NCBI RefSeq assembly: GCF_007846085.1
Contig: NZ_VOEJ01000004.1
Span: 310,001 to 374,000, forward strand
Origin: Mucilaginibacter pallidiroseus
GTDB lineage: Bacteria; Bacteroidota; Bacteroidia; Sphingobacteriales; Sphingobacteriaceae
DNA length: 64,000 nucleotides
Direction: 5' to 3'
Position numbers and translations under genes: made by a program. Shown in pieces: positions 27,579-48,932 of the stretch; the first letter of the stretch is position 1, and each line of letters starts with the position of its first letter. The notes below the pieces were generated by a model that saw only the letters and a list, made by a program, of their open reading frames with translations, did no database searches and had not been told where the DNA came from.

Positions 27579-29333
27579 TTAAAGGTTCTTGCCCAACTTT
27601 TCCAACATATCCTGCGGCACCTTTTGCAAATCAAGCATTAGGAAGCCATCAAGGCAGTTGGCAAATTTAGGATCGATATTAAAGCTTATAATTTTTGCAT
27701 TAAGCGCAACATACTGGCGCAACAATACCGGTACCTTCATGCTGTTGGTTTCCACCTCCGATATAAGTGCATCCAACCCTTTAAAAGTATTCTCGCCTGC
27801 CAACAAGGCATCCGTGTCGATATTATCAAAATCAACTTTGAATTTTTTACGCGGCTTAACATACTGCGCCATTTCATGGTCAAAGTGATTGCGGTTGATG
27901 TAATCAACAATAAGGGATTTTGAAAACGTGCTGAACGAATTACTTATACTTACCGGGCCAATAAGGTAACGGTAACGCGGATTATCCATTAAATATTTTA
28001 GGATACCCTTCCACAACAAAAACAAAGGCAACGGTTTGGTTTGATATTCCTTCCGTATAAACGAGCGGCCCAACTCAAGGCTCTTTTTAAGCACCGGCGT
28101 AAATTGCTCTTTTATTTTAAACAACTCATTTATATAAAAACCTTTTTTGCCAACGCTGTAAAATATTTCGTCGCCCAAGCCAATGCGGTAGGCACCCACT
28201 ATCATCTTGGTTTCAACATCCCAAATAAACAGGTGATGATAGTAAATGTCGTATCCGTCAAGATCAATTTCCTTGTTGGTGCCTTCTCCAACCTCTCTGA
28301 AAGTGATTTCGCGCAGTCGACCGATTTCACGAATTACGTTGGGTATCAAATTACTTGGCGTAATAAAAACCTCGTAGTTTTTCTCTGTCCATATTTTATA
28401 GACCTCGCGTAAAGGCTCAATTTCTTTTTCAAGTTTTTCGGGACTAACGGCAGGTGTTATGGCTTCAGGTAGCTTTTTTACCTTAAATAAGTTGCGGGCG
28501 CTGAATATCTTCTTTTCATCCTCAAGGCCTGCGCCTAATGCATATGTTTTTGCACGCAGGTAATTAAGCACCTTTGCACTGTTATTGTTATCAGGTATGT
28601 CCGCAAATTTAATAGGCTTGCCAATACGCAGTTTTATAGTGTGGCCTTGCTTGTTAAATAACTCTGAGGGCAGTTTGGCAGTACGCAGGGTAGGGTGCAA
28701 CATGCTCAGCAAGTTAAACAACAACCCATTATTGCCGTGGAAGTATATTGGTACGACAGGGACTTTAGCTTTGGATATAATTTTACCCACTACCGGGTGC
28801 CAAAGGCGATCAGTAATTTCTTTCTTCTCTATTTTAAATGTTGATACTTCGCCGGCTGGAAATATTCCGATTGGCGTTCCGTTTGCTAAAAGCTCGAGCG
28901 TATTTTTTAAACCGCTTATGCTTGATGAATGCTCAACATTCTCAAATGGGTTTACAGCAATAAAATAGTCGGCCAGGTTTGGGATCTTTTTCAAGATAAA
29001 GTTGGCCATTAGCTTGGCATCGGCCCTTACCATGGTAAGCATTTTTAATAAAACCATGCCTTCAATACCACCGTACGGGTGGTTGGCAATTGCTATAAAG
29101 CTACCGTCCTTGGGTATGTTTTTTAATTCGCGTTCGTCAAATTCAATATCAATACCGCAGCCTTTTAAAATGGCATCAACAAACTCGGGGCCTTGCTTTG
29201 GCTGCGCCTGGGCAAACAAATCGTTTACCTGGTTTATTTTCATCAGCTCCATCAGCAACGCGGCCAAACCTGGCATCTTAAGCTTATCCAGTTTAGTTGC
29301 TTTTGCAAACTCTTCGGTGGTTATTATTTTCAT
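27579..29333 (-). CDS. olsF: OlsF-like bifunctional acyltransferase (PlsC-type plus GNAT)
   Basis: A 584-residue fusion of two acyltransferases. Residues about 60-265 form a PlsC-like domain: IANHPYGGIEG with catalytic-type Asn84-His85 (the usual NHx4D ends in Glu or Gly here), FPAGEVSTFK and VPVVPIYFHGNNG. Residues about 300-480 form an OlsB-like GNAT domain: RLREITFREVGEG, LFIWDVETKMIVGAYRIGLG and LELGRSFIRKEYQ. OlsF enzymes of Serratia and Flavobacterium make ornithine lipids with both steps in one protein: N-acylation by the C-terminal half, O-acylation by the N-terminal half. A glycine or other amino acid lipid is an alternative product. Divergent from the helix-hairpin-helix gene. Confidence 0.82.
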   Translation of the reverse strand: MKIITTEEFAKATKLDKLKMPGLAALLMELMKINQVNDLFAQAQPKQGPEFVDAILKGCGIDIEFDERELKNIPKDGSFIAIANHPYGGIEGMVLLKMLTMVRADAKLMANFILKKIPNLADYFIAVNPFENVEHSSSISGLKNTLELLANGTPIGIFPAGEVSTFKIEKKEITDRLWHPVVGKIISKAKVPVVPIYFHGNNGLLFNLLSMLHPTLRTAKLPSELFNKQGHTIKLRIGKPIKFADIPDNNNSAKVLNYLRAKTYALGAGLEDEKKIFSARNLFKVKKLPEAITPAVSPEKLEKEIEPLREVYKIWTEKNYEVFITPSNLIPNVIREIGRLREITFREVGEGTNKEIDLDGYDIYYHHLFIWDVETKMIVGAYRIGLGDEIFYSVGKKGFYINELFKIKEQFTPVLKKSLELGRSFIRKEYQTKPLPLFLLWKGILKYLMDNPRYRYLIGPVSISNSFSTFSKSLIVDYINRNHFDHEMAQYVKPRKKFKVDFDNIDTDALLAGENTFKGLDALISEVETNSMKVPVLLRQYVALNAKIISFNIDPKFANCLDGFLMLDLQKVPQDMLEKLGKNL

Positions 29334-29398
29334 GCTGGGTTAAAACGCAATAAAAGTGTCTAAAATTATTTACTTTACAGCTTGGAAAACCATCTTCA

Positions 29399-30232
29399 AT
29401 GAAGCAGTACGTCAAAAATTACCTATCGCTCACTAAAAAGGAGTGGAACGGCATGGTTGTAATGTTGCTGCTCATCGCAATGGTGCTTGCGGCACCCTAC
29501 GCTCTTCAATGGTTGCATAAAGATACTACAATAAATGCAGCGGAGTTTAACGCTGCCCTTGCGCAACTCAACAAAGCTAACTCGGGCTTGGCTACCGACG
29601 GAAAAAGCCGACCCAAAAAGCAACTGTTTAAGTTTAACCCCAATAGCTTGCCGGTAGTAAAATGGCTGCAACTTGGGCTAAGCGATAAGCAAATAGCTAT
29701 CATCAAAAATTACGAGGCTAAAGGCGGTCGGTTTTACAAGCCAACCGACCTCAAAAAAATATATGGCATAAGCCCGGCAGACTATAAGGCACTGCAACCT
29801 TTTGTCGATATACCCGATGCTCCCGTTGCAAAACCAATAATAGAGCTCAACAAAGCCGATTCGGCTGCGCTTACTGCCTTAGACGGTATTGGTGCCGCAT
29901 TTGCAAAACGCATTTTATATTACCGCGAGCGGCTGGGCGGTTTCATCAACAAGGAGCAGCTAAAAGAAGTTTACGGGTTAGACGATGTTAAGTATCGTGA
30001 AATAAGCGGACAGCTTAAAGTGAACCCGGCGCTGATCCGTAAGATTGATATTAATGCCATCAGTTTTGATAAGTTGCGGTTGATGCCATATTTAAATTAT
30101 AAGCAGGTAAACGCAATCATTGAATATCGTAACCAGCATGGTAAATACGCTTCCATTGATGATTTGGCCAATGTAGCCATACTTGATGCCAATATTTTGC
30201 GTAAAATTGGGCCTTATTTAGTTTTTAAATGA
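29399..30232 (+). CDS. helix-hairpin-helix (ComEA-like) protein
   Basis: A 277-residue protein with one N-terminal membrane anchor (GMVVMLLLIAMVLAAPYALQ) and three helix-hairpin-helix modules. They are seen as GLSDKQIAIIKNYEAKGGRF, ELNKADSAALTALDGIGAAF with AKRILYYRERLGGF, and DINAISFDKLRLMPYLNYKQ. The last two match the ComEA pattern (IELNKAD / IDINAIS). ComEA binds DNA during uptake; in Bacteroidota this long anchored form is common but its function is not shown. The stop overlaps the apt start (ATGA). Confidence 0.85.
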   Translation: MKQYVKNYLSLTKKEWNGMVVMLLLIAMVLAAPYALQWLHKDTTINAAEFNAALAQLNKANSGLATDGKSRPKKQLFKFNPNSLPVVKWLQLGLSDKQIAIIKNYEAKGGRFYKPTDLKKIYGISPADYKALQPFVDIPDAPVAKPIIELNKADSAALTALDGIGAAFAKRILYYRERLGGFINKEQLKEVYGLDDVKYREISGQLKVNPALIRKIDINAISFDKLRLMPYLNYKQVNAIIEYRNQHGKYASIDDLANVAILDANILRKIGPYLVFK

Positions 30233-33114: not shown

Positions 33115-36100
33115 ATGCAATTTAAACACTTACTCACCTTATGTTTTTTTGCTTTGAGCTGTCTGCTTGTGCAGCCTGCTTTTGCGCAGAACAAAACAAT
33201 TACAGGTAAAGTAACCGACAAGAAAGACGGGCAGCCGTTAATTGGGGTATCTGTAGGTACTGCCGGTGGTGCCGGTACGCTTACTGCTACCGATGGTACT
33301 TTCAGGCTTTCGGTGCCTGCAAACACAACCAGCCTGGTATTATCTTACATCGGTTACAATCGCTTAACAGTAAGCATCGATGGCCGTACATCAATTGATG
33401 TAAGCATGGAATCGGCCAGCACAAACCTTAACGAAGTAGTTGTAATAGGCTACGGTACGCAAAGGGTAAAAGATGCTACAGGTTCCGTATCATCACTGGG
33501 CCAAAAAGACTTTAACAAAGGTGTTATTGCTACGCCAGACCAGTTATTGCAGGGCCGCGTTGCGGGTGTGCAGGTAACGCCATCAAGCGGTGAGCCTGGT
33601 GCAGGTGCACAAATCAACATTCGTGGTGCAGGTTCAATCCGCTCAGGCGATGGCCCCCTATATGTAGTTGACGGTATTCCATTGGATAACGGCGGTACAA
33701 GCGGCGGCTATGGCGTTGGTGCAGGTAGCTCATCTGCCCGTAACCCATTGGCTTTCTTAAACCCGGCCGATATCGAAAACATTTCAATCCTTAAGGATGC
33801 ATCATCTGCCGCTATTTATGGTGCGCGTGGTGCAAACGGTGTAATTTTGATTACTACACGTAAAGGCCGTAAAGGTCAGGGTGTACAGTTTTCATCAAAC
33901 GTAAGCTTGGCTAACCCGGCAAGCCGCTATGATGTGCTTGGCCGCGACCAGTTCCTGGCTGCAGTTGCAGCAGTTGGCGCAAACGCAGGCCCGGTATCTG
34001 CAGGCGGTGTTGATTACGGCGGCGATACAGATTGGCAAAAACAAATTTACCGCACTGCAATCTCACAAAACTATAACGTAGGCTTTGGCGGCGCAGGTAA
34101 TACTGCCAGCTATCGCGCATCTATCGGTTATGATGATCAAAAAGGTATTATTAAAAATACCGGCTTAAAGCGTTTAAATGCACGTATCAACGCTTCAAAA
34201 TCATTTTTTAATGAGCGTTTAAAATTCGATTTGCAATCAACTTACTCAAACGTTAAAAACCAGTACGCGCTTATCACAAATAACGCGGGCTTTAACGGTA
34301 GCCTTGTGGGTGCAGCTATCCAGCTTAACCCAACTGCACCTGTGTTTGACGACCAGGGCCGCTATTTTAACTTAAACGGTTACAATGCGGATGGTTATCC
34401 AAACGGTAACGGTTTCCGTAACCCGGTTTCTTTATTGGATCATATTGATGACCGCGATAACATCAACCGCTACTTAAACAACTTAACCATGACCGTTAAG
34501 CTTCTTGAAGGCTTATCATACAAAGGCAACTTCGGTGCTGATATATCTCGTGGTTTAAGAAAAACTTTCTATGATCCTAAGATTGTGGGTTTCACTGATG
34601 CAATCGGTATCAGACAGGTAAACTACCCATCACCAACCGGTAATGGTACCGCTATTTACCAAAATAACAAACTAACCAACTATACTACTGAGCATACCTT
34701 AAACTATGATAAAAAGTGGAAAGATAACAGCTCATTAACAGTATTGGCAGGTTACTCTTACCAAACATTTAAAAACTTCAACGATAACCAGTTCGGCTTT
34801 AAAACATCACAGCCGGGTGTATTAGTTAAAGATTACAACGACTTCCAGCAACACCTGCCTGTACCGGTGGGCGATAGCTCGAGCTACAAACTGCAATCAT
34901 ATTTTGCACGTGTTAACTACTCAATCAAAGATCGATACATAATCACGGGTACAATTCGCCGTGATGGTTCAAGCCGTTTTGGTGCTAACCACAAGTATGG
35001 TAACTTCCCTGCTGCAGCTGTTAAATGGCGCATCAGCAATGAAGAGTTTATGCCAAAAGGTGGTTTCTTTGACGATTTAAGTTTGAGGATCAACTGGGGT
35101 AAAACAGGTAACCAAGAAATACCTGCTTATGCATCACTTCCGGTTCAGCAAATTATCAACAACTCGGGCGGTACTGCTTACTTGTATCAGCCAAACCCTG
35201 ATTTGAAATGGCAAACCAACACCACCTATGGTGCAGGTATCGACTTCTCGATCATCAAAGGCCGCTTAACAGGTACTGTTGATTACTTTAACAAATCTAT
35301 TCAAGACCTTCTATTCTTCCAGGATATTGCACAACCAACCCTTTCTTCAAGGATTTACAGAAATCTTGATGGTAACGTAATCAACAAAGGTTTAGAGGTA
35401 GGTTTAAACTTTGCAGCAGTACAGGGTAAAGATTTTTCATGGGATATTAACTACAACATGACCTTTATCAAAAATACCTTGTCGAACTTCAAAAACTACA
35501 TCATCACAGGTAACATCGATGGTCAGGGTCTTTCAGGTGCATTTTCACAGTTGATTACTAATGGTGTACCATTGTTTACATTTAACGTGCCTAACTATGC
35601 AGGTTTAGATGCAAACGGTTTTGGTATATATCCTAACGGTTTGGACGTGTCATCACTACAAGGCAGCCCTAACCCTAAATTCACCGCTGGTTTAACCAAC
35701 AACTTTACTTATAAAAACTGGAACTTAAGCTTCTTCCTGAACGCTGCAACCGGTTTCTATATCTATAACAACACCGCAAACGCCTTCTTCTTTAAAGGCA
35801 ACTTGCTAAGTGGCCGTAACGTAACTAAAGATGTTGCTACAAGCAACGAGAACCCGCTTAACTCTGGCGAGGTATCAACCCGTTTCCTTGAAAAAGGTGA
35901 CTTCCTGAGGTTGAGCAATGCTACATTGGGTTATACTTTCCCATTGAAAGAAAGCGTGTTTAAATCGTTACGTTTGTCAGTTACCGGCCAAAACTTGTTC
36001 CTGATTACAAACTACTCAGGTCTTGATCCGGAGATCAACACAGATAAACAAAGAGATCAGGTTGCTTCAAGGGGTATCGATTATACCGCTTATCCTAAAG

Positions 36101-36138
36101 CAAGAATATTTACATTGGGCTTAAATGCAAGTTTTTAA
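33115..36138 (+). CDS. SusC/RagA family TonB-linked outer-membrane transporter
   Basis: A 1007-residue importer. In order: signal peptide ending PAFAQ, a CarboxypepD-reg-like domain (ITGKVTDKKDGQPLIGVSVG) at about 27-100, a TonB-box-like stretch near LNEVVVIGYGTQ, the plug domain with DQLLQGRVAGVQVTPSSGEP and IRGAGSIRSGDGPLYVVDGI plus ILKDASSAAIYGARGANGVI, and a 22-strand barrel ending in Phe (FTLGLNASF). It takes up oligosaccharides or other large nutrients using TonB energy, with the SusD lipoprotein as lid. susD starts 5 bases after the stop. Substrate is not readable; nearby GH65 and GH37 genes hint at alpha-glucosides. Confidence 0.96.
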   Translation: MQFKHLLTLCFFALSCLLVQPAFAQNKTITGKVTDKKDGQPLIGVSVGTAGGAGTLTATDGTFRLSVPANTTSLVLSYIGYNRLTVSIDGRTSIDVSMESASTNLNEVVVIGYGTQRVKDATGSVSSLGQKDFNKGVIATPDQLLQGRVAGVQVTPSSGEPGAGAQINIRGAGSIRSGDGPLYVVDGIPLDNGGTSGGYGVGAGSSSARNPLAFLNPADIENISILKDASSAAIYGARGANGVILITTRKGRKGQGVQFSSNVSLANPASRYDVLGRDQFLAAVAAVGANAGPVSAGGVDYGGDTDWQKQIYRTAISQNYNVGFGGAGNTASYRASIGYDDQKGIIKNTGLKRLNARINASKSFFNERLKFDLQSTYSNVKNQYALITNNAGFNGSLVGAAIQLNPTAPVFDDQGRYFNLNGYNADGYPNGNGFRNPVSLLDHIDDRDNINRYLNNLTMTVKLLEGLSYKGNFGADISRGLRKTFYDPKIVGFTDAIGIRQVNYPSPTGNGTAIYQNNKLTNYTTEHTLNYDKKWKDNSSLTVLAGYSYQTFKNFNDNQFGFKTSQPGVLVKDYNDFQQHLPVPVGDSSSYKLQSYFARVNYSIKDRYIITGTIRRDGSSRFGANHKYGNFPAAAVKWRISNEEFMPKGGFFDDLSLRINWGKTGNQEIPAYASLPVQQIINNSGGTAYLYQPNPDLKWQTNTTYGAGIDFSIIKGRLTGTVDYFNKSIQDLLFFQDIAQPTLSSRIYRNLDGNVINKGLEVGLNFAAVQGKDFSWDINYNMTFIKNTLSNFKNYIITGNIDGQGLSGAFSQLITNGVPLFTFNVPNYAGLDANGFGIYPNGLDVSSLQGSPNPKFTAGLTNNFTYKNWNLSFFLNAATGFYIYNNTANAFFFKGNLLSGRNVTKDVATSNENPLNSGEVSTRFLEKGDFLRLSNATLGYTFPLKESVFKSLRLSVTGQNLFLITNYSGLDPEINTDKQRDQVASRGIDYTAYPKARIFTLGLNASF

Positions 36139-36142
36139 TAAT

Positions 36143-37687
36143 ATGAAAAAGAAAAATATAATCTCGAAGGCGGCCTTATTAAGCTTAGCTTGCATGGCAG
36201 CAATGGGTTGCGCCAAACTGGATGAGAAATTATACGGTTCAAAATCCCTATACGGCGACAACGCCGGCGCCGAGCAATTGGCGGGTGTTTACTCACAATT
36301 ATACGGACAAACCGATCAGGCAAATACGTACGCACTACAGGAGCACTCAACAGATGAAATGATGGGCCCTACACGTGGTACTGACTGGGGTGACTTTGGT
36401 ACCTGGCGCAAGCTGCATACCCACACCTGGACACCGCTGCATAACCAGATCAACGATACCTGGGATCAGCTTAACATTGGTGTGTTCCGTGCTACAAAGG
36501 TATTTGAAGATGCTACTGATGTAAACATCAAAGCGCAAGCAGCATTTTTACGTGCATACTTCATGTTCCAGGTGGTTGACCTTTTTGGCCAGCAGCCAAT
36601 ACGTGATCCTAAAGCACCTGCGTCATCAATACCTACAGTATTAACACGCAGCGAGGCTACAGATTACATCATTAAAGATTTAGAATATGCTGAAACAAAC
36701 CTGCCGGCAACCACAGCTAACATTGGTGTGGCTAATAAAGCTGCTGCACAGGCATTGTTAGCAAAAGTTTACCTAAACCGTGCTGTTTACACATCTGCAA
36801 CAGTGGGTGGTCCGTTCACATTTGCGCAGGCAGATATGAACAAGGTTATTGAGTATGCAAATAAGGTAACAGCTGCAGGTTACACTTTGGAGCCTGCCGG
36901 TAAATACTTCCAGGATTTTGCTTGGGACAACTCTGAGATGTCTAAAGGTAACATCTTTGGTTTTTATAACACCACTACCAGTGCACCGGCATCGGCCAAA
37001 AACCGTTGGAGAATGGAGTTACACTACAACCAGACACCAGATGGTTGGAACGGTTTCACCACACTTGCCGATTTCTACAACTCATTCGAGTCGACAGATG
37101 AGCGCCGTGGTGTTGCTTACCCAGGCTTAACAAACCTTATTGGTTTGAGAGCAGGCTTTGCTGTAGGTCAGCAGTTTGGTCCGGGTGGCAAAGCATTAAC
37201 CCAACGTAGCGGCCAGCCGTTGATCTTTACTCCAGAAGTAAACCTCAACTTTTCTACAGAGGCGCAAGGTATCCGCGTGTTCAAATACTTCCCGCAGCCG
37301 GCTGCTAACGGTACAGTCAACGATGATAACTCATCAAATGACTACGTAATACTACGTTATGCCGATGTTGTGCTTGAAAAAGCAGAAGCTATTTTCCGTG
37401 GCGGTGTTGATCCGCAAGGCCAAACAGCTTTAGCCTTGGTTAACTCGGTACGCACGCCTCGTGGTGTGGCTCCTTTCGGTTCAGTTACCGAAGCTAACCT
37501 GCTTGCAGAGCGTGGCCGTGAGTTGTACTGGGAAGGCTGGAGAAGGAATGACCAGATCCGTTTTGGTAAATTCAATGATCCGGTTGATCAGCGTCCAAAC
37601 GCATCAGACAAAACACGTACACTATACCCGATACCTCAGCGTGCGGTTGATACCAACCCTAACCTGAAACAAAACGCGGGTTACTAA
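36143..37687 (+). CDS. SusD/RagB family nutrient-binding lipoprotein
   Basis: A 514-residue lipoprotein from the ATG at 36143; an earlier in-frame ATG at 36125 would overlap susC and delay the signal. Signal MKKKNIISKAALLSLACMAA with lipobox AAMGC. SusD features: four TPR-like helices (FLRAYFMFQVVDLFGQQPI, AAAQALLAKVYLNRAVY), the C-terminal segment YVILRYADVVLEKAEAIFRG and the classic end RGRELYWEGWRRNDQIRFGK ... LYPIPQRAVDTNPNLKQNAG. It caps the SusC barrel and binds substrate at the cell surface. A hairpin terminator follows the stop. Confidence 0.96.
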   Translation: MKKKNIISKAALLSLACMAAMGCAKLDEKLYGSKSLYGDNAGAEQLAGVYSQLYGQTDQANTYALQEHSTDEMMGPTRGTDWGDFGTWRKLHTHTWTPLHNQINDTWDQLNIGVFRATKVFEDATDVNIKAQAAFLRAYFMFQVVDLFGQQPIRDPKAPASSIPTVLTRSEATDYIIKDLEYAETNLPATTANIGVANKAAAQALLAKVYLNRAVYTSATVGGPFTFAQADMNKVIEYANKVTAAGYTLEPAGKYFQDFAWDNSEMSKGNIFGFYNTTTSAPASAKNRWRMELHYNQTPDGWNGFTTLADFYNSFESTDERRGVAYPGLTNLIGLRAGFAVGQQFGPGGKALTQRSGQPLIFTPEVNLNFSTEAQGIRVFKYFPQPAANGTVNDDNSSNDYVILRYADVVLEKAEAIFRGGVDPQGQTALALVNSVRTPRGVAPFGSVTEANLLAERGRELYWEGWRRNDQIRFGKFNDPVDQRPNASDKTRTLYPIPQRAVDTNPNLKQNAGY

Positions 37688-37727
37688 CCAGGAAACCGGT
37701 TTTCAATTAGTTATATTTGATTTAAGG

Positions 37728-37759
37728 CGTAGCGAAGAAATTCGCTACGTTTGTTTTTT
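37728..37759 (+). terminator. intercistronic terminator after susD
   Basis: Perfect 9-bp stem CGTAGCGAA / TTCGCTACG with a GAAA tetraloop followed by TTTGTTTTTTC. It lies 41 bases after the susD stop and only 12 bases before the start of the next gene, so it should reduce downstream expression relative to susCD. Confidence 0.8.
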
Positions 37760-37771
37760 CTGCTCGGCCTA

Positions 37772-40700
37772 ATGTTTAAAAAATTATTTTTACCCCTACT
37801 AATTTTAACGGCTGCGTGTGCCTCTTGTAATAAAAAAGGCGCTAATGATATATTATTTTCGCTGCAGCAAAATGATACCCTGGGCATTAATTTCATTAAC
37901 CAGCTTAATGACCAGGACCGTACCAATGTATTCACCTTTCGCAACTATTACAACGGCGGCGGTGTAGCCATTGGTGATATCAATAACGATGGTTTAAACG
38001 ATGTGTACCTTACATCCAACCAGGGAGGTAACAAGCTATACCTTAACAAAGGCAACTGGAAGTTTGAGGATATTACTGACAAAGCCGGCGTAAAGGGCAC
38101 CAAGTACTGGAGCACGGGCGTAACCATGGTTGATATCAATGGCGACGGCTGGCTGGATATTTATGTTTGCCATAGCGGCAACATAATTGACCGTAAGGGC
38201 AACGAGCTTTTCATCAACCAGCACAACGGCACTTTTACCGAAGAAGCCGAAAAATATGGGTTGGTAGATAACGGCCTGTCCACACAGGCTATATTTTTTG
38301 ATTATGACAATGACAACGATCTTGATTGCTTCGTCCTGAATAATTCTTTTAAGCCGATTGGTGCTTTTGACTTCAGTAAAAATTTGCGTGCGGTTGTCGA
38401 TACCCTGGGCGGTGCCCGACTGTACCGTAACGATGGCGGGCATTTTACCAATGTGACCCAGCAGGCGGGCATTTTTTCCAGCGATATTGGTTTTGGTTTG
38501 GGCGTTTCTGTAGCCGACCTTAACAATGACGGGTATCCTGACATTTATGTAAGCAACGATTTCTTTGAACGCGACTACCTGTATATCAACCAAAAGAATG
38601 GCACGTTTAAGGAAGATGTCCAATACGAGATGGGCCACCTGAGCCTGGCATCAATGGGGTCGGACATTGCAGATATTAATAACGACGGGCACCCTGACAT
38701 CTTTACCACAGAGATGCTCCCGGAAGGCGATAAACGCCTGAAGCAAATGACATCATTCGAATCATTTGACGTAATTAAACTCAAACAAAACGATGGCTAC
38801 TTTAACCAGTACATGCAAAACTGCCTGCAGCTAAATAACGGCGATGGCAGCTTTTCTGAAATAGCCTTTAGTGCAGGCGTTGCAGCGACCGACTGGAGCT
38901 GGGGGGCCTTGTTTTTTGATATGGATAACGATGGCTGGAAAGACATATTTGTATCAAACGGTATTTATAAAGACCTTACCGATCAGGATTATATAGAGTT
39001 TTTGGGGAATAGGGAAAGCATGGATAAAATTGCTGAAAAACGGTCGTTCGATTACAAGGAGTTTTCTAATAAAATGATCTCGACTCCTACGGTTAACTAC
39101 GCTTTTTTCAATAACCGCAACCTTACATTCACCAATAAGGCTAAAGAGTTTGGGCTGGACAAGCCATCGTTCAGCAACGGTGCAGCCTACGGCGATCTGG
39201 ATGGCGATGGCGATAATGACCTGATTGTAAATAACGTAAACAGCCCGCTATTTATTTATAAAAACAACGCCAATAAATTGGGGAACAATTATATTCAGTT
39301 AAAGCTAACAGGCAGTTCCGCCAATACTTTTGGGGTGGGAACAACGGTAAAGGCTTTCTCAAAAGATAAATCGGTTGTTTATTACCATCAGCCAACACGG
39401 GGTTTTGAAAGTAGTACATCGCCCAATTTGCTCACTATCGGGTTGGGGAAGGTTAATGTTTTAGATTCGCTGCAGGTTATATGGCCGGGCGGCAAATATC
39501 AGGTAATAAAAAACGTAAAGGCTAATAAGGTTTACAGTTACAAAGCGGCAGATGCAACTGCGCAATACAATTACGATTTACCTTCGGCTTCAACGCTATT
39601 TACAGAAACTGCAAGCACTCTATTCGATAACGTGCCCATGCATGTTGAAGACCATTTTATTGATTTTGACAACGAGCGCCTGATGCTGCAAATGCTATCA
39701 ACCGAGAACCCTTATATGGCCAAAGGCGATATCAATGGTGATGGTTTAGATGATTTTTATTTTGGAGGATCAAAGGATACGCCCGCCGCCATATATATCC
39801 AGCAGCAAAACGGTCGCTTTAAGCGCTACATTCCGGAGGATTTTGAAAAGCAGGTTTACCTGGAAAATGCCGGTGCCGTTTTTGGCGACTTTGACGGCGA
39901 CGGCGACCAGGATTTAATTGTTGCGGTCGGCGGCAATGCCGATGAACCTGGCGACCCTATTTACCTGCCACGCTTTTTCGAAAATGATGGTAAGGGCAAC
40001 CTGCACCGCAACCCGCAAAAAAGTATTCGCCTCTCGGTAAACGCCTCAGTTATCGTTGCAGCCGATTATGATAAGGATGGGCACTTGGACTTGTTTTTAG
40101 GCGGTCGCAGTGTACCAAAAACCTATGGCGAGGCACCACAATCGTTTGTGTTACATAACGACGGCAAAGGCAACTTTACCGATGTATCTGCAAAGGTATT
40201 TGGAGCAGATAATAAATTAGGTATGGTGACTGCCGCCCAATGGGCCGATCTGGACAACAATGGCTACCCCGACCTTGTTGTGGCCGGCAACTGGATGGGC
40301 ATCAAGGTCTATAAAAATAACAAAGGCAGCTTTACCGAAGACAAACAGCTTGATAATTACAAAGGCTGGTGGAGCGCCCTGCAAGTTGCAGATATAAATG
40401 CCGACGGCAAACTGGATATAGTTGCGGGCAACATTGGGCAGAACATCAAGTTTAAAGCATCTGCAACACAGCCTATGAAGTTATATGTTAAGGACTTTGA
40501 TAACAATGGCACCAAAGAGTGCATTACATCAATGTATAAGAACGATAGCATAGCCTATGTTTTCCACATGAAGCCTGATTTGGTAGGGCAGATGCCTTTG
40601 CTGAAAAAGAAATACCTGAAATATGCTGACTACGCGGGTAAACCCTTCGACCAGGTTTTTGATGCCGATGCGCTTAAAGGTGCCGAAGTACATGAAATGA

Positions 40701-41071
40701 ATTACTTGTCGTCGGCAGTATTTATTGCGGGGGCGGGCGGCAAGTTTAACGTTAAGCCTTTGCCTTACAATGCGCAGCTATCAAATGTGGGTACCATCTT
40801 AATTGATGATATCGACAATAGCGGCAAACCATCCATAATTTTAGGAGGAAACTTTTACGGCTTTAAGCCCGAAGTAGGGCGTTTAGATGCCAGCTATGGC
40901 CAAATTTATAAATATACTGACAAAGGATTTACGTATCTTCCACCGTCAAAAACCGGTATTAAACTAACGGGGCAAATACGCTCGTCATTGATGATTAAAA
41001 ACCGTCAGCAACAAAAGTATTACCTTTTTGGCGTTAATGACGATAAGCTAAAAGCTTACAAGCTACGTTAA
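37772..41071 (+). CDS. VCBS/FG-GAP repeat lipoprotein with UnbV/ASPIC domain (CRTAC1-like), first
   Basis: A 1099-residue lipoprotein. The ATG at 37772 opens a signal with Cys-rich lipobox (LILTAACASC, then NKKG); a TTG at 37751 lies in the terminator T-run and is rejected. About ten FG-GAP/VCBS blades with Ca2+-type loops follow (DINNDGLNDVYL, DLNNDGYPDIYVSNDFFERD, DLDGDGDNDLIVNN, DYDKDGHLDLFLGG), which form beta-propellers. An UnbV/ASPIC segment lies near 515-595 (GVGTTVKAFSKDKSVVYYHQ ... VIWPGGKY), splitting two propellers. Such proteins are thought to bind glycans or proteins at the surface; catalytic activity is not known. The next gene is a full-length paralogue. Confidence 0.92.
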   Translation: MFKKLFLPLLILTAACASCNKKGANDILFSLQQNDTLGINFINQLNDQDRTNVFTFRNYYNGGGVAIGDINNDGLNDVYLTSNQGGNKLYLNKGNWKFEDITDKAGVKGTKYWSTGVTMVDINGDGWLDIYVCHSGNIIDRKGNELFINQHNGTFTEEAEKYGLVDNGLSTQAIFFDYDNDNDLDCFVLNNSFKPIGAFDFSKNLRAVVDTLGGARLYRNDGGHFTNVTQQAGIFSSDIGFGLGVSVADLNNDGYPDIYVSNDFFERDYLYINQKNGTFKEDVQYEMGHLSLASMGSDIADINNDGHPDIFTTEMLPEGDKRLKQMTSFESFDVIKLKQNDGYFNQYMQNCLQLNNGDGSFSEIAFSAGVAATDWSWGALFFDMDNDGWKDIFVSNGIYKDLTDQDYIEFLGNRESMDKIAEKRSFDYKEFSNKMISTPTVNYAFFNNRNLTFTNKAKEFGLDKPSFSNGAAYGDLDGDGDNDLIVNNVNSPLFIYKNNANKLGNNYIQLKLTGSSANTFGVGTTVKAFSKDKSVVYYHQPTRGFESSTSPNLLTIGLGKVNVLDSLQVIWPGGKYQVIKNVKANKVYSYKAADATAQYNYDLPSASTLFTETASTLFDNVPMHVEDHFIDFDNERLMLQMLSTENPYMAKGDINGDGLDDFYFGGSKDTPAAIYIQQQNGRFKRYIPEDFEKQVYLENAGAVFGDFDGDGDQDLIVAVGGNADEPGDPIYLPRFFENDGKGNLHRNPQKSIRLSVNASVIVAADYDKDGHLDLFLGGRSVPKTYGEAPQSFVLHNDGKGNFTDVSAKVFGADNKLGMVTAAQWADLDNNGYPDLVVAGNWMGIKVYKNNKGSFTEDKQLDNYKGWWSALQVADINADGKLDIVAGNIGQNIKFKASATQPMKLYVKDFDNNGTKECITSMYKNDSIAYVFHMKPDLVGQMPLLKKKYLKYADYAGKPFDQVFDADALKGAEVHEMNYLSSAVFIAGAGGKFNVKPLPYNAQLSNVGTILIDDIDNSGKPSIILGGNFYGFKPEVGRLDASYGQIYKYTDKGFTYLPPSKTGIKLTGQIRSSLMIKNRQQQKYYLFGVNDDKLKAYKLR

Positions 41072-41081
41072 GCTGTAACCA

Positions 41082-44000
41082 ATGTACAAACTTACTTCAC
41101 ACCCATATAAGCAACTTGTTGTTTGCATTGCCGCCTTGCTATGCATAACCGTTTCATGCAAAAGCAAAAAAACGGGCGAAGGCATATTTAAGATCCTTCC
41201 TGCGTCAGAAAGCAATGTTGATTTTGTGAACCGCAGCCTGCCAACAGACTCGGTTAACATACTCGATTACCTATATTTTTACAATGGTGGCGGCGTTGCT
41301 ACTGCCGATTTTAATAATGACGGCCTAGAGGATATCTATTTCGTATCTAACCAGGAGAGTAATAAGCTTTACATTAATAAAGGCAACTTAAAGTTTGAAG
41401 ATATCACGAAAAAGGCTGGCCTATCTGGGGCGGGAAACTGGAAAACGGGTGTTACCGTGGTAGACATTAACGGGGACGGCTTTAAGGATATTTACCTTTG
41501 TGTAGTATCAAACTATAAAGGTTTCAAGGGTAAAAATCAGCTTTATATTAATAACGGCGACCTTACGTTTACCGAATCGGCTGCGCAATACGGGTTGGAC
41601 TTTGCGGGTTTTTCTACCCAGGCATCATTTTTTGACTATGATAAGGATGGCGACCTGGATATGTTTTTGCTAACTTCATCCGTACACAGTAACGATACCT
41701 ACGGCGACTCCACGCTTCGTTTTAAAGAAAGCCACGATGCCGGCGACCATCTTTTCCGTAACGATAACGGCAAATTTACTGATGTTACCAAAGGGTCGGG
41801 TATTTATTCGGCACCAATTGGCTACGGCCTTGGCGTTAGCGTGGGCGACCTTAATAATGATGGCTGGGACGATATATACGTAAGTAACGATTTTTTTGAG
41901 CAGGATTATTACTACATCAATCAGCAAAATGGCACGTTTAAAGAAGAAATAAAAACGGCGTTTGGCCATACCAGCTTATTCTCGATGGGGAACACTCTTG
42001 CCGATGTTAATAAGGATGGCTATGTGGACGTAATAAGCACCGATATGCTTCCCGAGGATATGAAAGCGCTTAAATCTACCATTAACGATGAGCCGCTCGA
42101 CATATACAACCAGGAAGTAAGCGTAGGTTACTATTACCAATACTCAAAAAACAGCCTGCAGTTAAACGTTGGTAATGGGCGTAAGTTTGTTGATATCAGC
42201 CTGTATTCAGGCATGTCGGCAACAGACTGGACATGGTCGCCCCTTGTGCATGACTTTGATATGGACGGACGCAAGGACATGTTTTTTTCGAACGGTATAA
42301 AACGCAGGCTCAATGATATGGATTACCTGAAGTACCTGGGCGACCCTAACGTGGTGAAGGACTTTAAAACAAGCCGCTTTTTTGATAAAGAGAAAATAAA
42401 CCTGATGCCCGAAGGATCGGTGCATAATTATTTGTACCGTGGCGGCGACAAGCTGAAATTTGATGATGTATCTGCCGGAAATGACATGGTCGACAATTCG
42501 ATTTCTTCCGGAGCAGTAGCTGTCGACCTTGATAACGACGGCGACTTGGAGCTGGTTACCAACAACATGGATGCACCAGCTTTCATCTACCGCAACATGA
42601 CTATGGAGAATGCGGCAAAAGATAAAAAGCCATCTTTCCTTAAGTTTAAGGCGAAGTATACAAAGGCAAACCCCGATGGTATTGGCGCTAAGTTCTTTAT
42701 GCGCTCGGCACAACAGGTAGATCATCAGGAAATACAAACAAGCACCGCTTATGCAAGCACGCAGGGCACAACTTTAAACTTTACATTTTTACCCGGCGAT
42801 AAGCCTGTGGAATTGATGGTGCTATGGCCCGATAACAGTTATCAACTGATTAAGGATTTCAAGATAAACGGCTTAAATACCATTAAGTACGATGCTTCAC
42901 AGGCAAAAACGGCTGAAAATGTTACCAATTTAGTAAGCAACTATATCAAAGACGCACGTGAATTTAATTACTTGCCGGTAGACGCAAAAGTATTAGCTAC
43001 GCAGGCCGTTTTTGAAACGCCCGATTTCAACTTTTATAATCTTTTACCACATAGCTACCTGCCACATACACCTGCCATTGCGGTTGCCGACGTAAATAAG
43101 GACGGAATTGACGACATATATGTTGGAGGCATTGCAGGAGAGGAAAAATACATCTTAGCCGGTAGTGCTGATGGTAATTTTAAAAAAGTAGCTGTAAAAG
43201 GTTTTGATGCATATAAGGACTATGGTGATACCGAGGCCCAATGGGCCGATGTAAATGCCGACGGCATGCCCGATTTAATAGTGCTTACAGCCAACCATCC
43301 TTTTATTGATGCTAAGAAGCGCCAGCAACCAAGGTTGTACATTAACAAAGGCAATTTTGAATTTGAATATAGAGCTTTACCTGCGTTACCTATACAGGTG
43401 GCCAAAGTATTTGCCTATGATTTTGATGGCGACGGTAAGCAGGATTTTTTCATGAATGGTGCGCTTTCCTTCCAAGATTATACCGCAGCCCCGGCATCTG
43501 TTGTGCTGCTTAATAAAGGAAACGGAGATTTCGCCGCTGCAAATAGCAAACGCTTTAGCGCCCTTACCGATATCAAATTCATCAACAGCATATCAGCGCA
43601 GGATATCGACCGTGATGGCACCCCTGACCTGATCGTAGCCGCCGAGTGGCAGCCGTTACAGATATTATTAAACAAAAATAAAAACCTTACAAAGCTTTCA
43701 TCGGCGGTGTTAGACAAAGCCAGCGGCTGGTGGCAATGTGCAATAGTTACCGACGTTGACGGTGACGGCAAAGCCGACCTTGTAGCGGGTAACTGGGGGC
43801 TGAATAATAAATACAACGTAACCGCTACGCAACCGCTTTATGCATACAATAACGACGTTGATAAAGACGGTAAGAACGACCTGATATTATCATACTTTTA
43901 CAAAGAGAAGTATTACCCTTTCCGACCGAAGAATGATTTGGAACAGGAATTGCCTATTCTGAAAAAGGAATTTTTGAGCTTCCAGAAAATGGCTGATAAA

Positions 44001-44414
44001 ACTACGGAAGAGATATTTAAAGAGGGCATTACAAAAGATGGGCGCCTGGAAGCCAACGAGTTTAGCAGTGTTTATGTAAGCGATATCCTGAATGCCAAGG
44101 CTATTACCCCAATGCCTTATTTGTATCAGCAGGCACCTATCCGTAACATAGTACCGCTTAACAATGGTAGCCGTGAAATTTTATTGAGCGGTAACTTTTG
44201 GGGGGTAGTACCCTATGAGGGCAAGTATGATGCACTTGGCCTGGTAACCACACATTACGATCCCAAAACAAAGCAATTAGCAATGCCCGATTATTGGATA
44301 AATAGCATGCTGAACGCCCAGGAGCTTACGCATCTATACCCTTATAAAGGAGGAAGCAAACAAGGTTTTGCAGTTGTAACCTATGAAGGTAAACTGATGC
44401 TGGTTACCAAATAA
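41082..44414 (+). CDS. VCBS/FG-GAP repeat lipoprotein with UnbV/ASPIC domain (CRTAC1-like), second
   Basis: A 1110-residue paralogue of the preceding protein with the same order: lipobox CITVSC then KSKKTGEG, an N-terminal propeller (DFNNDGLEDIYFVSNQES, DINGDGFKDIYLC, DLNNDGWDDIYVSNDFFEQD), an UnbV/ASPIC part about 530-610 (GIGAKFFMRSAQQVDHQEIQ ... LWPDNSYQLIK), and a second propeller (DVNKDGIDDIYVGG, DIDRDGTPDLIVAAEWQPL). It starts 10 bases after the first paralogue stops, so both come from one mRNA. Sequence divergence is high, so the duplication is old. Its stop touches that of the convergent SRPBCC gene. Confidence 0.92.
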   Translation: MYKLTSHPYKQLVVCIAALLCITVSCKSKKTGEGIFKILPASESNVDFVNRSLPTDSVNILDYLYFYNGGGVATADFNNDGLEDIYFVSNQESNKLYINKGNLKFEDITKKAGLSGAGNWKTGVTVVDINGDGFKDIYLCVVSNYKGFKGKNQLYINNGDLTFTESAAQYGLDFAGFSTQASFFDYDKDGDLDMFLLTSSVHSNDTYGDSTLRFKESHDAGDHLFRNDNGKFTDVTKGSGIYSAPIGYGLGVSVGDLNNDGWDDIYVSNDFFEQDYYYINQQNGTFKEEIKTAFGHTSLFSMGNTLADVNKDGYVDVISTDMLPEDMKALKSTINDEPLDIYNQEVSVGYYYQYSKNSLQLNVGNGRKFVDISLYSGMSATDWTWSPLVHDFDMDGRKDMFFSNGIKRRLNDMDYLKYLGDPNVVKDFKTSRFFDKEKINLMPEGSVHNYLYRGGDKLKFDDVSAGNDMVDNSISSGAVAVDLDNDGDLELVTNNMDAPAFIYRNMTMENAAKDKKPSFLKFKAKYTKANPDGIGAKFFMRSAQQVDHQEIQTSTAYASTQGTTLNFTFLPGDKPVELMVLWPDNSYQLIKDFKINGLNTIKYDASQAKTAENVTNLVSNYIKDAREFNYLPVDAKVLATQAVFETPDFNFYNLLPHSYLPHTPAIAVADVNKDGIDDIYVGGIAGEEKYILAGSADGNFKKVAVKGFDAYKDYGDTEAQWADVNADGMPDLIVLTANHPFIDAKKRQQPRLYINKGNFEFEYRALPALPIQVAKVFAYDFDGDGKQDFFMNGALSFQDYTAAPASVVLLNKGNGDFAAANSKRFSALTDIKFINSISAQDIDRDGTPDLIVAAEWQPLQILLNKNKNLTKLSSAVLDKASGWWQCAIVTDVDGDGKADLVAGNWGLNNKYNVTATQPLYAYNNDVDKDGKNDLILSYFYKEKYYPFRPKNDLEQELPILKKEFLSFQKMADKTTEEIFKEGITKDGRLEANEFSSVYVSDILNAKAITPMPYLYQQAPIRNIVPLNNGSREILLSGNFWGVVPYEGKYDALGLVTTHYDPKTKQLAMPDYWINSMLNAQELTHLYPYKGGSKQGFAVVTYEGKLMLVTK

Positions 44415-45353
44415 TTAATAAATGGGTGAGCAAATTTTAGTTACCCATTTGCCGCTATCGGGCTGTGTGAGGCGGTTAGTTTGCAGCTCCTCATAAGGCA
44501 TTGCAGGCGATATAAGCCCGTGGTCTTTTTGATAGTTGCGCAACTGCCGGAAGGCATTGTAAATGGTCTTGGGGCCACCGTAAACGCTTGCGGTTAATAG
44601 GTTACCACCAAGCACCATTTTGTTGATCACCTGCCCGGCACCTGGTTTAATAACTTTATTAATAGGCAGCGCAACCATTACACGGTAGCTGTCGGGCCCG
44701 CTTTGGTCGGCATTGAGCAGGGGCTGCCCTGTAACTTTAGCACCTTGTGCAGTGGCTTGTTTTTGTAATTCATCAGCAAGCTTATATATAGCCTGCGCCG
44801 ATGGGTAACCCGTTGTTACGGTATTACCTGCAATCATTACTGAGATCTTGATTTTTTCTAAAGACACATCAATACCGTACACCTTATTGTTTTGGTGCAT
44901 GAACTTCTTGAAGCGCGCCAGTATTGTGTCAAGTTCGGGCTGACGGCTTTTTATTTCGGTAAACTCTTTGATGCGCTTAAATGGATTAATGCTGCTTTGG
45001 TGTTTTACTGCCCAAATCACTTCACTTTCGCCATCGCCGGTTGCAGCAATACTGATGTAGCTGTTTATGCGGGCAGTATCAAATAACAGGGCAAGCTCCA
45101 TGCCGCCAAAGGTGCCGTTTTGAAGCAGGTAATTATGGCCATTGTAAGTAAGTTGTTTTTGCTGCAGCTTTGGTTTATCGCCCGGCCACCACTCGGCCCA
45201 GCGGTTTTCATTGGTCATGAATTTGGCAACCCTTACGTCGGTGGCGTCTATCTTAACCTTGGCATTTATAGTGATGTATTGAGGGATGATAAAATATATA
45301 CCGATGAAGGCAAGCAATAGCAGGCCTATTACAAAAAGGGCAGGTTTTTTCAT
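44415..45353 (-). CDS. SRPBCC / GyrI-like effector-binding protein, membrane-anchored
   Basis: A 312-residue protein with an N-terminal anchor (ALFVIGLLLLAFIGIYFIIP). A START/SRPBCC-type ligand fold follows (ITINAKVKIDATDVRVAKFM, NRWAEWWPGD) at about 30-165. The second half resembles the GyrI-like/AraC effector-binding fold (GYPSAQAIYKLADELQKQAT, YRVMVALPINKVI, NYQKDHGLISPAMPYEELQT). It could bind a hydrophobic small molecule in the periplasm. It is the only minus-strand gene inside the SusCD-to-GH65 run, tail to tail with the second VCBS gene, so it is not co-transcribed with them. Confidence 0.75.
   Translation of the reverse strand: MKKPALFVIGLLLLAFIGIYFIIPQYITINAKVKIDATDVRVAKFMTNENRWAEWWPGDKPKLQQKQLTYNGHNYLLQNGTFGGMELALLFDTARINSYISIAATGDGESEVIWAVKHQSSINPFKRIKEFTEIKSRQPELDTILARFKKFMHQNNKVYGIDVSLEKIKISVMIAGNTVTTGYPSAQAIYKLADELQKQATAQGAKVTGQPLLNADQSGPDSYRVMVALPINKVIKPGAGQVINKMVLGGNLLTASVYGGPKTIYNAFRQLRNYQKDHGLISPAMPYEELQTNRLTQPDSGKWVTKICSPIY
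44420..44450. terminator. hairpin at the convergent VCBS/SRPBCC junction
   Basis: AAATGGGT / ACCCATTT arms with a 15-base loop, inside the last codons of the SRPBCC gene and just past the VCBS stop. No long T-run, so function as a terminator is uncertain. Confidence 0.4.
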
Positions 45354-45548
45354 AAAATCGTAGCACTAATCCAGGTTTGCAGGCAGCTGGCAGATGGCCG
45401 CCTCAACGCCTGCAAAATAACCATTAAATGTGGTCAAAGTCAAGCGCCAAAAACCTTTAAATAACGGGAAAAGCCTATATTAGCACTAATTTCCAATAAA
45501 ACCTGTTTAATTAAACCATTGCTAACTGGGTTGCCAGTTTATACTACT

Positions 45549-46877
45549 ATGAAGCGTTTGTTAACCCTGCTTACGTTTGTTGCTTTGTTTGCTATATCCT
45601 GCAAAAAGGCCGACTACCAAAAGTTTACCCACAACCCCGAATTATATCGCACTACGGTTAAAAAGCTTAATGATATTGTGCTTGAAAATAACTTTCCGCC
45701 GGTTATTGCTTCCCGTAACTATGCTTATGCCAACATTGCTGCGTACGAGGTTATCGCCGCCGGCGATCCTAAGCATTACCGCTCGCTCGCCGGGCAAATC
45801 AAACATTTACCTGCGGTACCAAGGCCGGTTAAGGATGCCGAGATCGATTTTCCATTTGCATCCATGTTGTCTTTTTGCCAGGTAGGTAATGCCGTAACTT
45901 TTCCTGAAGGCAGTATGGAGATTTACGTAGAGGAATTAAAGCAAAAGGTGAAAGATGCAGGGATGCCATCATCGGTCTTTGAAGCTTCCGTTACGTATGC
46001 CGATTCTGTTGCCAAACATATTTTAAAATGGAGCAAGGGCGATAACTACGCTCAAACACGGTCGGCCAGTAAGTATACGGTAACCCGCAAGGATGGCCGC
46101 TGGATACCTACACCGCCCATGTATGCCCAGGCGCTTGAACCGCACTGGGGCGAAATACGGCCGATGGTGCTCGATTCATCTTCACAAATACCTGCGCCCG
46201 AGCCGCCTGCTTACAACATGACCGATAAAAAAGGCACATTTTACAAGGCCGTAATTGAGGTGAAAAATATGGTTGATAGCCTTAACGAAGATCAGCGCCA
46301 CATGGCCGATTTTTGGGATGATAATGCCTTTAAATTAAACGTTATAGGCCATGCCTCATTTGCCACTAAGAAGTTTTCGCCCGGTGGCCACTGGATGAAC
46401 ATTGCCGGTGCGGGCGCCCAAATTAAAAAAGCCGACTTTGGTACAACGGTGGCGGCATACACACAGACATCTATAGCGCTTTATGATGCCTTTATTAACT
46501 GCTGGTATGTAAAGTATAGAGCAAACAGCGTGCGCCCCGAAACCGTAATAACCAAACTGATTGACCCTGATTGGCGGCCGTATATACAAACGCCCCCCTT
46601 CCCCGAATACATTAGCGGGCATGCCGTTATATCAGCCGCTGCGGCGGAAGTGCTTACACATAATTTTGGAGATAACGTAGCCTATACCGATTCGTCTGAA
46701 TCGGAATTTGGAATCGCGCCCCGAAAGTTTACCTCCTTTAGGCAGGCAGCAAACGAAGCCGCACTTTCCCGCGTGTATGGCGGCATCCATTACCGCAATG
46801 CTTGCGTAATAGGCAGTCAAACAGGCCGAGTTATTGGGCAAATGGTAAACGAAAAGTTGCAGTTGAAGATCAAATAA
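45549..46877 (+). CDS. vanadium-dependent haloperoxidase-type PAP2 lipoprotein
   Basis: A 442-residue lipoprotein from the ATG at 45549 (signal MKRLLTLLTFVALFAISC, then KKAD); the frame is open from 45519 but without signal character. The vanadate/phosphate site of the PAP2/haloperoxidase superfamily is complete: KYRANSVRP (K-x6-RP), PEYISGHA (SGH) and SRVYGGIHY (SR-x5-H). Relatives oxidise halides with H2O2 or act as acid phosphatases; both use the same residues, so the reaction is open. The lipobox places it at the outer membrane. The GH65 gene starts 15 bases downstream, indicating one mRNA. Confidence 0.88.
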   Translation: MKRLLTLLTFVALFAISCKKADYQKFTHNPELYRTTVKKLNDIVLENNFPPVIASRNYAYANIAAYEVIAAGDPKHYRSLAGQIKHLPAVPRPVKDAEIDFPFASMLSFCQVGNAVTFPEGSMEIYVEELKQKVKDAGMPSSVFEASVTYADSVAKHILKWSKGDNYAQTRSASKYTVTRKDGRWIPTPPMYAQALEPHWGEIRPMVLDSSSQIPAPEPPAYNMTDKKGTFYKAVIEVKNMVDSLNEDQRHMADFWDDNAFKLNVIGHASFATKKFSPGGHWMNIAGAGAQIKKADFGTTVAAYTQTSIALYDAFINCWYVKYRANSVRPETVITKLIDPDWRPYIQTPPFPEYISGHAVISAAAAEVLTHNFGDNVAYTDSSESEFGIAPRKFTSFRQAANEAALSRVYGGIHYRNACVIGSQTGRVIGQMVNEKLQLKIK

Positions 46878-46892
46878 ACCCTTATCCTTATT

Positions 46893-48932
46893 ATGAAAAA
46901 GAACATATTTACATGCGTTGCTATATGCTTTATGGCTGCGGGCAGTGTAATGGCGCAAAATGTAAGCCCCTGGACAATTAAGGCTGATAAGATTGACCCT
47001 GCAAACTACTACGGTATAACGGCCGCCAATGGGATGATAGGCATTGTGTCCTCGCCCGAGCCTTTCAAGGTAAAGAACGTGGTATTGGCTGGTGCTTATG
47101 ATCTGTACGGGCGTGGGCGGGTAAGTAATTTCCTCAACAGCTTTAACCTGCTTAACATGTATCTGGAGGTTGATGGTAAACGCATCGATGCCAAAATGGT
47201 AAGCAATTATAAGCAGGAGCTTGATATGCAGCATGCCGCCATGACAACATCTTTTGACTATGGTGATAAGGCATCTATAAAATATACCTACTACTCGTTA
47301 AGGCAATTGCCTTTTACGGTGCTGATGGATGTGGCGGTAACGGCCAAAAAGCCCATCAACATAACCGCTGCCAGCGTTATGGAAGCGCCTGACGCGTTGA
47401 AGCAGGTAGAGAACTATTACAACGAGATAGACCGCCCGCATGTAACCATCAGTTTGCTCACATCAACTGCAAAAAGCCCTACGGGTAAGTTGCAGCTTTG
47501 CGCATCAACCTCGTTTTTGTTTAACGAGGAGCATGGCAAGGAGCCTCGCGTTATTCATGAAATGTGGGACAACAACATGCACCTCATGAAATTTAGCCGG
47601 ACCATGGCTGCCGGGCAAACGTATAAGTACGGCGTTACAGGATCGTCCATTACATCGGCACACCACCCCGACCCGTTAAATGAAGCTGAGCGCCTAACTA
47701 TTTTTGCGAAGCTTGAGGGTAGGGACAGGTTAATACAATTTCACAACAAAGCCTGGGATGAGCTTTGGAAAAGCGATATCCAGATCGAGGGCGACCCGCA
47801 AGCCCAGCAGGATGTGCATAGCATGCTTTATCACTTATACTCGTTCTCGCGGGCGGGCTCTGCTTTGTCGCCATCGCCAATGGGTTTGTCTGGTTTAGGT
47901 TATAATGGCCACGTTTTTTGGGATACCGACCTTTGGATGTTCCCGGCCATGTTGGTGTTGCATCCCGAGATTGCAAAATCTATGGTTGAGTACCGCTACG
48001 AGCGACTGGATGCAGCGCGTAAAAACGCGTTTTCGCATGGCTACAAGGGTGCAATGTTCCCCTGGGAAAGCGCCGACAGCGGTGTGGAAGAAACACCGGT
48101 CTAGGCCTTGAGCGGCCCCTTTGAGCACCATATAAGTGCCGATGTTGCCAATGCTGCTTGGGCCTATTATTGTGTTACACAGGATAAGGACTGGCTGCGA
48201 GAAAAGGGCTGGCCGCTGCTTTCGGCTACGGCAGATTTTTGGGCAAGCCGCGTAGAACGTAATGGCCCGGGCCATTATGATATTAAAAATGTAGTAGCCG
48301 CCGACGAGTGGGCCGAGAATATTGACAACAATGCCTTTACCAATGCTGCCGCGAAGGCCAATTTAATGAATGCCACTGCGGCTGCTAAATTGCTAGGCTT
48401 AAAGGCCGATAGCGATTGGGTAAACGTAGCAAATAACATCCCCATCCTTAAAATGGCAAACGGCGTTACACAAGAGCATGCACAATACAAAGGCGAAGGT
48501 ATTAAGCAAGCCGACGTAAACCTTTTGGCTTATCCCCTTAAAGCCATCACCGACCCGGCACAGATCAAAAAAGACCTTGAGTATTACGAAACCCGTGTAC
48601 CAAACGAAGGTACCCCGGCTATGACCCAAGGTGTTTTTGCATTGCTTTACGCCCGTTTGGGTAACGGTGAAAAAGCCTATCATTGGTTTAGGGATGCTTA
48701 TGAACCCAACTTGAATCCACCGTTCCGGGTAATTGCCGAAACCAAAGGTGGCACCAACCCATACTTTGCCACAGGCGCAGGCGGCATTGTCCAGGCTATG
48801 CTTATGGGTTTCGGTGGACTGGATATTACACCAACCGGCATTGTTCAAATAAAAAGCGCCCTGCCGACAAAGTGGAAATCATTAAAGATTACCGGGGTAG
48901 GGGTTGAGAAAAAGACTTATACGGTGAAGTAG
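46893..48932 (+). pseudogene. GH65 glycoside hydrolase/phosphorylase gene broken by an amber codon
   Basis: One frame of 679 codons encodes a secreted family 65 enzyme (signal MKKNIFTCVAICFMAAGSVM then AQ), with TAG at codon 404 (48102-48104). Upstream are the N-terminal beta-sandwich and the start of the (alpha/alpha)6 barrel (GYNGHVFWDTDLWMFPAMLV, GAMFPWESADSGVEETPV). Downstream the barrel continues in the same frame: ALSGPFEHHISADVANAAW, the catalytic-acid segment VVAADEWAENIDNN (Glu472), and the C-terminal cap. The TAG replaces the usual Trp (TPVWAL), a single TGG-to-TAG change. The truncated product would lack the catalytic Glu. Intact relatives act on alpha-glucosides such as trehalose, kojibiose or nigerose. 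Confidence 0.88.

Follow-up and report, generated by a model that had tools for sequence, protein, structure and literature searches.

An in-frame amber codon at a lineage-conserved tryptophan in a GH65 gene of Mucilaginibacter pallidiroseus, probably a very recent null allele

Single-stop pseudogenes occur in bacterial genomes, and a literature search for such pseudogenes among the glycoside hydrolases of Bacteroidetes returned nothing relevant. The closest relative of solved structure is, for the gene considered here, FjGH65A, the kojibiose hydrolase of Flavobacterium johnsoniae (PDB 7FE3/7FE4). The available text of its description names Glu472 as the acid and Glu616 as the base, the Gln mutant of each being inactive, and it provides the roles of Pro575/Ala576, Phe625 and Met330, which replace phosphate-site residues (PMC8626586). 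Within the genus Mucilaginibacter itself, the kojibiose hydrolase MmGH is known from M. mallensis (SDT07729.1), according to the part of its description at hand (PMC8537180).

The window, that is, the whole stretch of 64,000 nucleotides that was analysed, contains a GH65 frame running from an ATG at 46893 to a terminal stop at 48930-48932, which is also a TAG. Apart from codon 404, this frame is open over 679 residues; its single interruption, the TAG at 48102-48104, is in phase with both the ATG and the terminal stop (Table 1). The translation around it reads SGVEETPV, stop, ALSGPFEHH, and the second half resumes directly at 48105. A first-pass annotation had described two frames of the same phase split by an amber codon, which the translation bears out, the stop being codon 404. 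Its second frame, listed from 48108, is indeed in phase, but the true continuation begins at 48105; the TTG at 48108 is merely the first one past the stop, and its use as a start is an artefact of the ORF listing rule. Pfam places GH65 N-terminal and central domains 5' of the stop and a further part of the central domain 3' of it (PF03636 and PF03632 across both halves). Because there is a single stop in 679 codons, with GH65 matches on either side and intact full-length orthologues elsewhere, the two frames are one disrupted gene and not unrelated frames by chance. An unbroken frame through the catalytic barrel is present in the relatives and absent here.

Table 1. Features of the GH65 locus, in window coordinates
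Feature	Coordinates	Strand	Remarks
SusC-like and SusD-like outer-membrane pair	33115..37687	+	Open; upstream of GH65
Pair of long FG-GAP repeat genes, ASPIC/UnbV in the first	37751..44414	+	Open; near GH65 in many relatives
PAP2-superfamily gene	45519..46877	+	Open; directly upstream of GH65; order the same in closest relatives
GH65 N-terminal part, 403 codons	46893..48101	+	Signal-peptide-like start (by eye), N-domain, linker, first ~30% of the catalytic barrel; from Pfam and alignment to FjGH65A, domain boundaries as given in the available text of PMC8626586
In-frame amber codon (codon 404)	48102..48104	+	Trp there in 93/93 non-identical orthologues
Remainder of the GH65 frame	48105..48932	+	Rest of the barrel, which includes Glu472 and Glu616, and C-domain; untranslated if the stop is obeyed

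Direct codon reading covered the best 80 of 372 confirmed relatives from a contig scan and 30 loci of the genus, the own locus included. The equivalent of codon 404 is TGG in all 109 other loci, in collections that overlap and in which three further rows are the own genome. After rows identical in the core were dropped, 93 non-identical orthologues remained (about 77-92% protein identity), every one with a tryptophan at this position. In printed alignments, the residue is Asn in FjGH65A and Asp in human PGGHG. The earlier claim of a conserved tryptophan therefore holds within the lineage (93/93), but not across GH65. Trp404 is a feature of the lineage rather than of the family, and along the chain it stands near residues 391, 392 and 407 of the +1 subsite. 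Trp391 and Glu392 are present; at position 407, the own copy and 92 of the 93 orthologues carry Ser, and one orthologue carries Thr. As a side observation, the combination Trp404/Ser407 in Mucilaginibacter and related orthologues, near residues of the +1 subsite, might reflect a difference in substrate choice with respect to FjGH65A.

FjGH65A is also the best solved match of the read-through frame (PDB 7FE3; residues 23-678 aligned, 954 bits). Glu472 and Glu616 occur in the own frame and in all 93 orthologues, and here both lie 3' of the stop; the annotated location of the catalytic Glu472 was correctly numbered, and in the alignment this residue matches the FjGH65A general acid. The phosphate-site residues are likewise replaced (Pro575/Ala576, Phe625, Met330) in the own copy and in the 93 orthologues. 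Since both glutamates stand at the same numbers as in FjGH65A and the phosphate-site residues are replaced, the frame is predicted to encode a GH65 hydrolase of the kojibiose hydrolase (alpha-1,2-glucosidase) type. The genome contains one other GH65 gene, which looks phosphorylase-like by eye. Its identity to the broken gene is only 31% over 180 residues, too low for a close spare, and the broken gene is the sole close copy in this genome.

Among 149 genomes of the genus, the own genome included, 120 gave a match. Counted from the listing, 97 of the 149 have an orthologue, which is full or near-full in 96 and lies in two pieces on two contigs in one (G108); the remainder had weak matches only (23) or no match (29). 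An internal stop in the best GH65 copy was found in the own genome alone. Loss of the gene seems to be tolerated in the genus, because no orthologue was found in 52 of the 149 genomes searched, some of them incomplete. Second copies also exist: in one genome, of another species (G027, contig C1, 5666295-5668279), a second GH65 copy is broken near its 3' end by TGA and TAA while the first copy shows none, which may be a further loss under way, and no stop was seen in the second copy of another genome (G014). Outside the genus collection, the 24-mer at the stop site had no exact match in viral contigs. Of the 256 plasmid records matched with the first half as query, a Hymenobacter one reached 76.9% identity, the sole record in the 60-80% range, and the other 255 stayed below 60%. 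A DNA search of 11 relative genomes, including the own, gave a match in five, the best non-own one at 78% identity.

How old the stop may be was estimated from changes at invariant columns instead of dN/dS, which was unobtainable because the synonymous distance was often undefined (460 of 992 ordered pairs among 32 sequences). Across the 93 orthologues, 268 columns show no variation, and the own copy differs at one of them, by the stop at codon 404. The other 267 columns comprise 625.7 non-synonymous sites and show no change, which by the rule of three gives a 95% bound of about 0.0048 per site on the neutral divergence since the loss, i.e. below about 0.5%. Among the 385 columns with a conservation of 95% or more, too, the stop is the sole departure. 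In a leave-one-out control on the other 93 orthologues, unique changes at such columns numbered 0 or 1 in 83 cases and 2 to 5 in the remaining ones. The terminal protein branch of the own copy (0.052) is of ordinary length and ranks 44th of 94, the median being 0.058. Its protein difference from its neighbours is 0.066 before the stop and 0.082 after it, against 0.049 and 0.071 for ten neighbours among themselves; the own copy is slightly more divergent in both parts, with no particular rise 3' of the stop. The nearest orthologue among those read differs at 19.7% of bases, hence the comparison contains no sister strain. The initial argument that a gene free of decay must have been broken recently is supported by the 267 unchanged columns, and the stop is most likely very recent.

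Around the GH65 gene, a short unassigned gene and then a trehalase on the other strand lie downstream. The order FG-GAP, PAP2, GH65 is kept in the closest relatives, and elsewhere PAP2 follows GH65 or is unseen. More generally, FG-GAP, GH65 and PAP2 genes stay together in many Bacteroidota loci; at 33115-48932 of the window, they are grouped with SusC/SusD. A damage scan with 719 frames of relatives, of which 333 had hits, covered 42,360 of the 64,000 bases. In the 100 stop-bearing rows that were checked, the GH65 amber was met 29 times, and 138 stops belonged to shadow frames within another open frame of at least 150 aa. The other five stops, at 29341, 33094 and 41076, lie in the gaps separating listed genes or ahead of a start codon. 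One frame change on the same strand (29089-30229) joins the site at 29341 to the next gene and is interpreted as the frame of a relative that extends farther upstream. Within the covered bases, no stop was found inside any gene of the window other than GH65.

The bound on age is equally expected if the stop is absent from the organism. The main rival of a recent null allele is an error of base calling or assembly in a strain whose gene is intact. One base suffices for this, the call comes from the assembly, and the absence of other damage at the 267 invariant columns fits as well. On the other hand, the assembly looks good (4.25 Mb in 17 contigs, 99.46% complete, 0 contamination), the GH65 gene is alone in having an internal stop in the part of the window that was covered, and deep short-read assemblies, if this is one, seldom contain substitution errors. 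An error is thus rather improbable, though it deserves more weight than any other alternative. About half as much is given to a polymorphism within the strain or a mutation acquired in culture, with part of the population keeping the intact gene: extreme recency would fit a variant from the laboratory or the population and a mixed culture would look the same in the assembly, but no positive evidence points to it, and we regard it as unlikely. The least credible of all is a split gene, the halves of which would be produced independently and combine into an active enzyme. In its favour, both halves are undamaged, but the break falls inside the catalytic barrel (boundaries from the available text of PMC8626586), the second half has no export signal by eye, and no best copy among the relatives is interrupted in this way.

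The preserved downstream frame would also be expected if amber suppression or readthrough yielded some full-length enzyme. An Rfam search of the genome, in which scoring covered 150 of 282 first-look candidates, gave 44 tRNA matches. ARAGORN, run on 43 tRNA loci including 13 stretches for 14 matches that lacked a locus, made 63 calls, which by our own count correspond to 43 distinct tRNAs once repeats from overlapping loci are removed. A suppressor tRNA with anticodon CUA had been among the four options named at the outset, next to a newly dead gene, a polymorphic strain and a sequence error; no CTA anticodon occurs among these 43, in a list that is incomplete (without Ile-GAT and Ala-TGC), and this option is disfavoured. 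The 44th Rfam match, near the end of contig C11 (about 522094-522209), is weak (30 bits) and has no assigned anticodon, and ARAGORN made no call at this locus or in the surrounding 9.8 kb; by eye, two tandem tRNA-like units can be seen there. A pattern scan for a CTA anticodon loop with a T-loop gave 35 matches, below the 48 of the reversed control, and two of the 35, by their coordinates, coincide in part with tRNA-Val genes of the other strand. The genome also has release factor 1, above the cut-off and without a stop. Pyrrolysine was considered and rejected: the PylS model reached 22 bits against a cut-off of 178, and it also had matches in 13 of 14 control genomes, one of them above the cut-off. 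Furthermore, TAG terminates 8 of 43 frames of the window, the GH65 frame included (43 picked from 53 listed), all of which strong suppression would extend, and the stop at position 404 is not conserved, being absent from all relatives read. With a tRNA list that lacks some expected species, a suppressor is judged unlikely, and production of full-length enzyme in this way appears very unlikely as a whole. It could be imagined that low-level reading of the amber codon, by an unseen suppressor tRNA or leaky termination, gives a trickle of kojibiose hydrolase and keeps the downstream half under selection, but the chance of this is equally slight.

The explanation that we consider probable is that a nonsense mutation has very recently given a null allele for a sugar enzyme of the kojibiose hydrolase type, one that the cell can do without. 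A single recent nonsense change, probably present in the living strain, would have disabled the sole close GH65 copy of this type. The enzyme would normally be exported, to judge by eye from its signal-peptide-like start. The truncated product should be unfolded or inactive, because both catalytic glutamates (Glu472 and Glu616) would be missing from it, and the cell would then lose the hydrolysis of alpha-1,2-glucosides by this enzyme. This matters mainly for annotation: the broken gene should not be taken to give the genome a working kojibiose hydrolase, and the two halves should not be counted as two genes. The case appears to show a gene loss at its very start, and the gene concerned is missing from many genomes of the genus. 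Losses of this sort are commonplace, and this one changes no general view.

Compared with known systems, the GH65 case shares with single-stop bacterial pseudogenes one nonsense codon, intact relatives and no other decay, and nothing was found that sets it apart from them. With FjGH65A, as far as the published text at hand describes it, the locus shares Glu472, Glu616, Trp391/Glu392 and Pro575/Ala576 in place of phosphate-binding serines. FjGH65A, in contrast, has no stop at 404 and combines Asn404 with Thr407, whereas the orthologues considered here have Trp404 and, in 92 of 93, Ser407. MmGH belongs to the same genus and, likened through the part of its description that was available, would be expected to represent the same activity class as the enzyme that the M. 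pallidiroseus gene seems to have encoded until recently.
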